The position numbers and the translations under genes are program-made. This document shows, in pieces, positions 25,784 to 27,531 of a DNA stretch of 64,000 nucleotides. Source of the stretch: Rubrobacter calidifluminis (lineage in GTDB: Bacteria; Actinomycetota; Rubrobacteria; Rubrobacterales; Rubrobacteraceae); contig NZ_JAQKGV010000015.1 of NCBI RefSeq assembly GCF_028617075.1, positions 1-64,000 of the forward strand, given 5' to 3'. Below the pieces are notes generated by a model, which made no database searches, was not told the origin of the DNA, and saw only the letters and a program-made list of their open reading frames with translations. The stretch's first letter is position 1. Every line of letters starts with the position of its first letter.

Positions 25784-26014
25784 GTGGCCGGGAAGAGGCG
25801 CTGGGGGGAGCTGAGCCGGGGGCAGCGGGCGGCGATTGTTCTGGCGGGTACGGTCGAGCTCGGGCTGAAGGTGGCGGCGCTCGTGGATCTTTACCGGCGC
25901 GAGGAGAGCGAGGTGAGGGGGCCGAAGGCCGCCTGGGTGGTCGCGCAGGCGGTGAACTTCTTCGGGCCGGTGGCGTACTTCGCTTTCGGGCGCCGGAGCA
26001 GTTTTGACCGGTAG
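25784..26014 (+). CDS. PLDc_N-type small membrane protein
   Basis: A 76-residue protein with two hydrophobic segments. It carries the pattern of the PLDc_N domain: AALVDLYRREESEVRGPKAAWVVAQAVNFFGPVAYFAFGRR. This short domain heads cardiolipin synthases but often occurs alone, with unknown function. GTG at 25784 follows AGAGGAGG. It is divergent from the ArsR gene across the perfect inverted repeat, so it may be controlled by that repressor as well. Its final codons contain the -35 box of the promoter for the DAHP synthase leader. Confidence 0.8.
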   Translation: MAGKRRWGELSRGQRAAIVLAGTVELGLKVAALVDLYRREESEVRGPKAAWVVAQAVNFFGPVAYFAFGRRSSFDR

Positions 26015-26032
26015 GGTGTGGGCGGGTAGAAT
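26004..26032 (+). promoter_or_regulatory. Promoter of the aroF leader-attenuator
   Basis: -35 TTGACC (26004-26009), a 17-nt spacer and -10 TAGAAT (26027-26032) make a near-consensus sigma-A promoter. The expected start point, 7-8 nt after the -10 box, falls on the ATG at 26040, the first codon of the aromatic-rich leader ORF. The mRNA would therefore be leaderless. Confidence 0.75.
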
Positions 26033-26039
26033 GCCGGCC

Positions 26040-26135
26040 ATGATCGCCGGTCACGGGATGAACGTGCGCTTCTATTACTTTATCCGGCGGGCCCTCCGGA
26101 GGGACGGGCCGGCCGGCGGGGTTCACCCGGCTTAA
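26040..26135 (+). CDS. Leader peptide with Phe-Tyr-Tyr-Phe, upstream of DAHP synthase
   Basis: A 31-codon ORF that begins at the predicted transcription start and ends in TAA. Residues 9-17 read VRFYYFIRR: four consecutive aromatic codons, TTC-TAT-TAC-TTT at 26070-26081. Such a run is the hallmark of leader peptides that control aromatic biosynthesis by ribosome stalling. A second in-frame ATG at 26058 would give a 25-residue version. The rest is Arg/Gly/Pro-rich and resembles no protein. The stop lies 30 nt before the terminator hairpin at 26165. The role is inferred from content and position. Confidence 0.7.
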   Translation: MIAGHGMNVRFYYFIRRALRRDGPAGGVHPA

Positions 26136-26164
26136 CCGCGGTCGGTTCGGCGGAAGATTCGGAG

Positions 26165-26197
26165 GGCGGAGGCTCCTGGAGCCTCCGCCTTTCGTTT
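26165..26197 (+). terminator. Attenuator terminator hairpin upstream of DAHP synthase
   Basis: GGCGGAGGCTCC (26165-26176) and GGAGCCTCCGCC (26178-26189) are perfect 12-nt complements, followed by TTTCGTTT. It lies in the 5' leader, before the ribosome site of the enzyme gene. An upstream segment, GCCCTCCGGA (26091-26100), can pair with TTCGGAGGGC (26158-26167), which invades the 5' arm of the terminator and could act as antiterminator. Confidence 0.7.
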
Positions 26198-26223
26198 GGG
26201 AGAAGACGGAGGGAGAAGAGGAG

Positions 26224-27531
26224 ATGGTGATGAGGGAGATGCTCGTCCTGATGCGGCCCGGGAGTTCGCGGGCGCAGGCGGAGGCCGTGCGGGCGCAGGT
26301 CAGGGAGGCGGGGCTCGAGGCCGGCATGTTCCCGGGGACGGGGAGGATCGCGGTGTGGGTGGAGGGAGAACCCCCGGACGGGCTCGAGAGGACACTCGAG
26401 TTGCTGCCCGGGGTGGAGGAGGTACTCCGCGCCGACGGATCCGCGGGCACCAGCGACCTGCGCGTCACGGGCATCCGGCCGCTCTTGCCTCCGGCGATCC
26501 TCTCCGAGCAGCTCCCGCTCTCGGAGGGGCAGGCCCGGAGCGTCGGCCGGGCGCGGGAGGAGATCGTGCGGGTGCTCGACGGCTCGGACGACAGGCTCAT
26601 CGTCGTGGTCGGGCCCTGCTCGATACACGACCCGGAGGCGGCCCTCGACTACGCCCGGAGGCTCCGGGGGATCGCCGACGAGTTGCGGGAGGAGCTCCTC
26701 GTCGTCATGCGGGTCTACTTCGAGAAGCCCCGGACGACGGTGGGCTGGAAGGGCCTCGTCAACGACCCGCACCTCGACGGGAGCTTCGCGATCAACGAGG
26801 GGTTGCATCTGGCGCGCAGATTGCTGCTGGAGATCGCGGAGCTCGGGCTCCCGGCCGGGTGCGAGTTCCTCGACCCAATCTCCCCGCAGTTCTTCGCCGA
26901 CGCCGTCGCGTGGGGTGCGATCGGGGCGCGCACGACCGAGAGCCAGGTGCACCGCCAGCTCGCCTCGGGGCTCTCGATGCCGGTCGGCTTCAAGAACGGG
27001 ACCGGGGGGAGCGTCAGGATCGCCGTGGACGCCGTCCGGGCCGCCGCCCACCCGCACAGCTTCCTCGGGGTGACCCGTCAGGGGCTCGCCGGGATCGTCA
27101 CCACCCGCGGCAACCCGGACTGTCACGTGATCCTGCGCGGCGGCAAGAACGGGCCCAACTACGACGCGAAGAGCGTGGAGGGCGCGCTCGGGGAGCTGCG
27201 CGGCGCTGGCCTGCCGCCGCGGGTGATGGTCGATGCGAGCCATGACAACAGCGGCAAGGATTACCGGCGCCAGCCGCAGGTGGCCAGCGCGCTGGCGGAG
27301 CAGGTCTCCGGCGGGCAGCGGGGCATCGTCGGGGTGATGCTCGAGAGCTTCCTCGTCGACGGCCGGCAGGATCTCGACGCCGGGAAACCTCTCGTCTACG
27401 GCCAGTCCGTCACCGACTCCTGCATGGGGTGGGAGACGACAGTGCCGGTTCTGCGCGAGCTCGCGCAGGCCGTCCGCGCCCGGCGGAAGAAACCGGATGC
27501 GCCGGCCGCCGGGGCCTGGGCCACGACGTGA
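26224..27531 (+). CDS. aroF: 3-deoxy-7-phosphoheptulonate (DAHP) synthase, AroG-type core with extra N-terminal domain
   Basis: A 435-residue DAHP synthase that condenses PEP and erythrose 4-phosphate, the first step of aromatic biosynthesis. The catalytic part is class I alpha (AroF/G/H type): VVGPCSIHDPEAALDYARRL (near residue 129), FEKPRTTVGWKGLVNDP, GFKNGTGGS and the metal ligand in VDASHDNSGKDYRRQP. It begins about 70 residues later than in E. coli AroG. The extra N-terminal part (LVLMRPGSSRAQAEAVRAQV, GRIAVWVEG, LLPGVEEVLR) resembles the ferredoxin-like regulatory domain of the Thermotoga-type I beta enzymes. ATG at 26224 follows GGGAGAAGAGG. The gene lies behind a promoter, a leader ORF and an attenuator hairpin. 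The paralogue letter is uncertain. Confidence 0.92.
   Translation: MVMREMLVLMRPGSSRAQAEAVRAQVREAGLEAGMFPGTGRIAVWVEGEPPDGLERTLELLPGVEEVLRADGSAGTSDLRVTGIRPLLPPAILSEQLPLSEGQARSVGRAREEIVRVLDGSDDRLIVVVGPCSIHDPEAALDYARRLRGIADELREELLVVMRVYFEKPRTTVGWKGLVNDPHLDGSFAINEGLHLARRLLLEIAELGLPAGCEFLDPISPQFFADAVAWGAIGARTTESQVHRQLASGLSMPVGFKNGTGGSVRIAVDAVRAAAHPHSFLGVTRQGLAGIVTTRGNPDCHVILRGGKNGPNYDAKSVEGALGELRGAGLPPRVMVDASHDNSGKDYRRQPQVASALAEQVSGGQRGIVGVMLESFLVDGRQDLDAGKPLVYGQSVTDSCMGWETTVPVLRELAQAVRARRKKPDAPAAGAWATT

Follow-up and report, generated by a model that had tools for sequence, protein, structure and literature searches.

Upstream of a DAHP synthase gene, which stands first in the pathway to the aromatic amino acids, we find in a member of the Rubrobacteria what is very probably a ribosome-mediated transcription attenuator with a leaderless leader peptide. 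It would match expression of the enzyme to the amounts of charged tRNA-Phe and tRNA-Tyr available. An aromatic-amino-acid attenuator of this kind, with a leaderless leader before DAHP synthase, had been proposed from a sequence-only reading of the window (by which we mean the whole 64,000-nt stretch of DNA that was analysed), and the proposal is well supported, a leaderless start being likely: six sequences keep the codons, the spacing, the proposed antiterminator and the terminator. The individual elements that it named can all be read directly in the DNA where it had placed them, namely the promoter TTGACC-N17-TAGAAT, the ATG at 26040, the 31-codon ORF with its Phe-Tyr-Tyr-Phe (FYYF) codons and its stop at 26133-26135, the hairpin with 12-nt arms, the T-rich tract and the ribosome site of the gene. 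The competing pairing that it drew between 26091-26100 and 26158-26167 is present as well, and it shares only GGC with the terminator arm. The features, all on the forward strand, are as follows.

26004..26009, + strand: -35 hexamer TTGACC, read directly
26027..26032, + strand: -10 hexamer TAGAAT, read directly, 7 nt 5' of ATG 26040
26040..26135, + strand: leader ORF MIAGHGMNVRFYYFIRRALRRDGPAGGVHPA, 31 codons plus TAA (26133-26135), read directly and aligned with the leaders of relatives
26070..26081, + strand: regulatory codons TTC TAT TAC TTT (Phe-Tyr-Tyr-Phe), read directly
26084..26116, + strand: protector (anti-antiterminator) hairpin A:B within the leader ORF, predicted fold of -28.4 kcal/mol
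26091..26100, + strand: 5' arm of the antiterminator (segment A), GCCCTCCGGA, pairing 10/10 with 26158-26167
26158..26167, + strand: 3' arm of the antiterminator (segment C), TTCGGAGGGC, read directly and picked independently by RNAalifold
26165..26189, + strand: intrinsic terminator hairpin, read directly; 11 bp and a 3-nt loop when folded
26190..26197, + strand: U-rich tract of the terminator, TTTCGTTT, read directly
26209..26223, + strand: ribosome-binding region of the DAHP synthase gene (GGAGG ... AGGAG), read directly
26224..27531, + strand: type Ialpha (AroFGH) DAHP synthase carrying a ferredoxin-like (FXD) domain at its N-terminus, from domain matches

Promoter and leader peptide

The two hexamers, which a direct reading places 17 nt apart, agree with the consensus at 10 of 12 positions and form the best promoter-like site of the region; within 2.2 kb there are two promoter-like sites, compared with 0.1 in shuffled sequences. 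When the whole 64 kb is scanned on both strands for TTGAC-N-TANNNT-N5-8-[AG]TG, the leader of the DAHP synthase is the single site found (0.03 expected). In five relatives (L004, L009, L011, L012 and L096) the -35 hexamer at the matching position is TTGACG or TTTACG, and in all six distinct sequences, the window included, a TTGACn-like promoter has its -10 box 6-8 nt upstream of the start codon of the leader. Mapped transcription start sites of Streptomyces lividans lie 4-9 nt 3' of the -10 box, with a mean of 6.3 nt (PMC8079986). It is chiefly because this spacing is constant in six sequences that we read the leader as leaderless; from the promoter-to-start anatomy we infer the 5' end of the transcript and the translation of the leader, and judged in this way the leader peptide is likely to be leaderless.

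One may also consider that the attenuator stands but that its leader is not leaderless, either because transcription starts further upstream or because translation begins, with a ribosome site, at the in-frame ATG 26058 or GTG 26064, both of which precede the aromatic codons. However, no Shine-Dalgarno sequence was seen 5' of either codon, and the distance from the -10 box is held at 6-8 nt in six of six sequences despite variation in leader length and in the choice of ATG or GTG. Since, in addition, the N-terminus of the leader is otherwise unconserved and published leaderless promoters have an identical anatomy (PMC8079986), we regard this alternative as unlikely. We also rejected the idea that the aromatic ORF is a remnant of PLDc_N, the gene upstream, as PLDc_N is read in a different frame and ends at 26014.

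The peptide itself is distinctive. Nowhere else in the 64 kb, whatever the frame, do four aromatic codons follow one another (0.28 expected), and FYYF includes TAT and TTT, which are rare in this DNA (8% of Tyr or Phe codons). Aligned with its counterparts (MIAGHGMNVRFYYFIRRALRRDGPAGGVHPA in the window; MRAGGYISVRYPYRSALRRGGPVTWARLM, MEQGAIFGRTYGGRYYYRCALRRGGPFVRRRPV, VSKSFYERFYYRSVLREVGPDARR, VKTNFHERFYYRFAPRRVGPDARWQATK and VKINFHERFYYRFAPRRVGPDARWHLAK in L004, L096, L009, L011 and L012, respectively), it keeps a core of R-[FY]-x-[YW] and is otherwise unconserved in its N-terminal part; the six leaders are 24-33 codons long and start with ATG or GTG. A scan of the window's own genome for strong leaderless promoters (TTGAC/TANNNT) gave 15 sites, about four times as many as the four of a reversed-pattern control, and of these 15 the window's site alone leads into a short ORF that contains an aromatic run. 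Several of the 15 open short ORFs of unknown function, such as L165 (37 codons) and L166 (30 codons).

Conservation and covariation in the family

The genome that contains the window is GC-rich. Our search set comprised 39 genomes, in which class and family form one set. DAHP synthase of this type occurs in 15 of them and the leader in eight, these being three nearly identical genomes of the window's genus together with L004, L096, L009, L011 and L012. The comparisons that follow are of six distinct sequences (L001, L004, L096, L009, L011 and L012). A TTGACn-like promoter, an aromatic leader, an antiterminator, a terminator and a type Ialpha DAHP synthase are common to all six, so that both the aromatic codons and the hairpins, which the sequence-only reading had proposed to compare in related genomes, are conserved. 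A covariance model run against the 39 genomes matched nothing beyond the loci used for its training and copies nearly identical to them, each beside this DAHP synthase.

The antiterminator helix A:C has nine Watson-Crick pairs and one G-U pair in the window. The pairing is 10/10 in each of the six sequences, and at pairs 5, 6 and 10 compensatory changes affect both bases. Since segment C is outside the ORF, the matching changes in A and C are not explicable by peptide coding. RNAalifold, with the alignment as its sole input, selects A:C and the terminator, and the terminator hairpin lies at the equivalent position in all six sequences, again with two-sided base changes. Covariation scores 0.309 (shuffled alignments, 0.217), which none of 500 shuffles and none of the slid controls reached; as the six sequences all come from one family, these shuffle counts overstate independence, and the covariation should be taken as support rather than as a probability. 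In L004, MAFFT sets segment C two columns off, which lowers the RNAalifold and covariation counts, and the hand-aligned table is the better guide.

The terminator of the window is a 12-nt inverted repeat, GGCGGAGGCTCC (26165-26176) and GGAGCCTCCGCC (26178-26189), with a centre of 1 nt, and its U-tract is imperfect; those of the relatives read TTTTTCTTTT, TTTTTGTTTT or TTTTTGTTG. A generic terminator scan of the region did not list the hairpin 26165-26189, probably because G-U pairs extend its stem into the T-run. Comparison with Rfam covariance models gave no match in the window, the best hit within the leader (E 0.095) being far under the gathering score. The leader does fold better than its shuffles (z -2.6). 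GC-rich sequence generally folds stably, and one could hold for that reason that the likeness to an attenuator is a matter of chance and that there is no regulatory element here; the conservation in relatives refutes this, the occurrence statistics and the covariation also speak against it, and we consider it extremely improbable.

Three further genomes (L005, L006 and L010) retain, ahead of the gene, the promoter and a terminator-like hairpin of the type GCAGGGGC...GCCTCTGC but lack the aromatic leader ORF, which looks like the decay of an attenuator to a bare terminator. The same three loci would also suit an explanation in which the terminator is constitutive, or controlled by a protein or ligand, and the aromatic ORF is incidental. 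Such a scenario is very unlikely, because a leader with R-[FY]-x-Y has been kept in six distinct sequences and because other Actinobacteria and many proteobacteria also have an aromatic leader ahead of this enzyme (see below). Upstream of the DAHP synthase genes in L007, L008, L013 and L014, neither an aromatic ORF nor a promoter with hairpin was found.

A predicted switch between two helices

From this arrangement we infer a switch that would work as follows. Transcription would start at, or at most 1 nt from, ATG 26040, and the leader would be translated from its leaderless 5' end. When Phe and Tyr are ample, the ribosome would pass the FYYF codons and reach the stop codon; with the ribosome there, A:B (26084-26116) would fold, C would stay free, the terminator at 26165-26189 would form and most transcripts would stop near 26197. 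When Phe or Tyr is scarce, the ribosome would instead stall at 26070-26081 and cover the base of A:B, leaving segment A (26091-26100) exposed. Stalling would thereby favour the antiterminator A:C, and the DAHP synthase gene would be turned up under shortage of either amino acid. The part common to A:C and the terminator in the window is only GGC 26165-26167 (3 nt, at the base of the terminator), whose partner would be either GCC 26091-26093 or GCC 26187-26189.

Folding of the window's leader gives the expected pattern: the predicted probability of A:C is 0.01 in the free RNA, where A is hidden by the A:B hairpin, 0.99 with a ribosome stalled on FYYF (modelled by exposing the RNA only from 2 nt 5' of segment A) and 0.00 once the ribosome stands at the stop codon. 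Fold energies calculated with A:C forbidden were set aside, since that constraint removed further pairs of A and C. As far as folding goes, the attenuation logic of the sequence-only reading is thus borne out in the window, but not in the same way in its relatives. All five have predicted equivalents of A:B (-14 to -26 kcal/mol); nevertheless A:C is favoured in their free RNA too, and in four of them also with a ribosome at the stop codon, so that equilibrium folding alone gives no clean off state there.

Moreover, in L096, L009, L011 and L012 the antiterminator and the terminator share no nucleotide at all, and the two helices adjoin, or nearly adjoin, and can coexist in a fold. One might accordingly picture the antiterminator of this family as lying flush with the terminator, the neighbouring helix blocking or delaying closure of the terminator with no competition for a strand; this seems to us rather unlikely. 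We would give no more credence to its corollary, that the window with its 3-nt overlap is one end of a range and the "fast attenuator" of ilvBNC another case.

The lack of overlap in these four sequences may also be taken in favour of some other control through translation of the leader (translational attenuation, Rho-dependent termination or ribosome stalling), to which the hairpin would contribute little. Mycobacteria offer parallels: leaderless leader ORFs are cysteine-responsive attenuators there (Canestrari 2020, cited in PMC13236596), and at these cys operons obvious terminators were not found (PMC1262725). On the other hand, the hairpin with its U-tract occurs at the equivalent position in all six sequences and shows two-sided changes, and the ribosome site of the gene lies about 20 nt past the terminator, outside the switch predicted for the window. 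We therefore hold this alternative to be quite unlikely, somewhat more so than a leader that is not leaderless, and continue to prefer transcription attenuation.

Known attenuators and other aromatic loci

The sequence-only reading had presented the leaderless attenuator peptide as a new variant. This claim of novelty fails, because leaderless attenuator peptides have already been published (ilvL of Corynebacterium glutamicum, ilvB of Corynebacterium diphtheriae and several in S. lividans) and because a Phe-Tyr-Phe (FYF) leader before DAHP synthase is known in C. glutamicum. There, the leader aroR precedes and controls the DAHP synthase gene aroF (PMC11802643, PMC4046766), whose transcription goes up when Phe is limiting and depends on Phe but not on Tyr (PMC11802643). 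The two systems are alike in having a leader peptide with an aromatic run ahead of DAHP synthase; comparing the leaders by description, they differ in that the run is FYF there and FYYF here, and they belong to different actinobacterial classes. The DAHP synthase of the window further differs in its N-terminal FXD domain. All attenuators analysed by Neshat in 2014, aroR included, are reportedly leaderless.

A nearly identical layout is that of the ilvBNC attenuator of C. glutamicum. The start codon of its leader, ilvL, is 1 nt from the transcription start (PMC11857589), and ilvL was tested with start-codon, codon-replacement and lacZ-fusion mutants (Morbach 2000, cited in PMC11857589). In this "fast" attenuator the bases of antiterminator and terminator are adjacent with one GCC overlap, an arrangement supported by mutations (PMC11857589). 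The window shares with it a leader peptide, here probably leaderless, the order of anti-antiterminator, antiterminator and terminator, and a single common trinucleotide (GCC there, GGC 26165-26167 here). Unlike the window, ilvBNC senses branched-chain amino acids and controls another gene, and four of the window's five relatives share 0 nt between the helices rather than 3. With the window, the "boundary trinucleotide" layout, which has been called a hallmark of ilvBNC, gains a second candidate, and the six covarying sequences make up a set in which the role of helix overlap could be tested.

Leaderless attenuator peptides are also described for ilvB of C. diphtheriae (PMC5784534) and, in S. 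lividans, for trpL1, trpL2, ilvL, leuL1, leuL2, metL and thrL (PMC8079986). Those of S. lividans are leaderless ORFs before amino-acid genes, with TAnnnT and TTGACn promoters, as is probably true of the leader in the window, and their starts have been mapped by RNA-seq; in contrast, their signals do not include Phe or Tyr, and no DAHP synthase gene follows any of them. With the pheA, pheST and trp leaders of Escherichia coli, the candidate has in common that stalling on codons for the end product would select the antiterminator over the terminator. In E. coli these peptides are each translated from a ribosome site of their own, and a long segment is common to antiterminator and terminator, whereas in the window the shared part is only 3 nt.

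An earlier survey of Actinobacteria found no conserved element ahead of Phe or Tyr genes (PMC1262725). In Amycolatopsis (L027, L041) and Mycobacterium (L061) we observed that the type Ialpha DAHP synthase has ahead of it a leader containing RYFWF or RAYWRF, at a -10-to-start spacing of 6-7 nt; aromatic leaders precede the type Ialpha enzyme in many proteobacteria as well. Similar leaders in Corynebacterium, Amycolatopsis and Mycobacterium suggest that Phe/Tyr attenuation of DAHP synthase in Actinobacteria may be old or may have been reinvented repeatedly. The present example would place a leaderless Phe/Tyr attenuator of DAHP synthase in the Rubrobacteria, beside the corynebacterial aroR; it adds to a known kind of attenuator and opens no new class. 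In Burkholderia, Xanthomonas and Oxalobacteraceae (L066, L078, L082, L035, L038, L080, L074, L089), strongly aromatic leader ORFs, such as MSAKFYFYFFWYLRPLADREG, were noticed ahead of type Ialpha DAHP synthase genes and are possibly an attenuator family.

Within the window's own family, the regions upstream of trpE in 30 genomes contain no Trp-run leader, so that attenuation is not, as far as tested, a general habit of the family's aromatic genes. No convincing aromatic leader was found upstream of type Ibeta DAHP synthase at 15 loci; weak ORFs at two of these (L149 and L155) were discarded, as neither has a promoter at the right spacing.

The regulated enzyme matches PF18152 at residues 6-69 and PF00793 at 116-408, and TIGR00034 over residues 78-421 with 525 bits (cut-off 173.2). 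The N-terminus MFVVMR of its relatives aligns with MLVLMR at 26239, and the gene may really begin at ATG 26239 or ATG 26230 and not at 26224. FXD is a regulatory domain known from type Ibeta DAHP synthases; its part of the window's protein had no match among solved structures. Here FXD is joined to a type Ialpha enzyme (window 26224-27531; L016). The type Ibeta DAHP synthase of the same genome (L162, C5 near 99860-100993), which comes after a chorismate mutase-like ORF, appears to begin without FXD, which looks as though FXD had passed between these isoenzymes.
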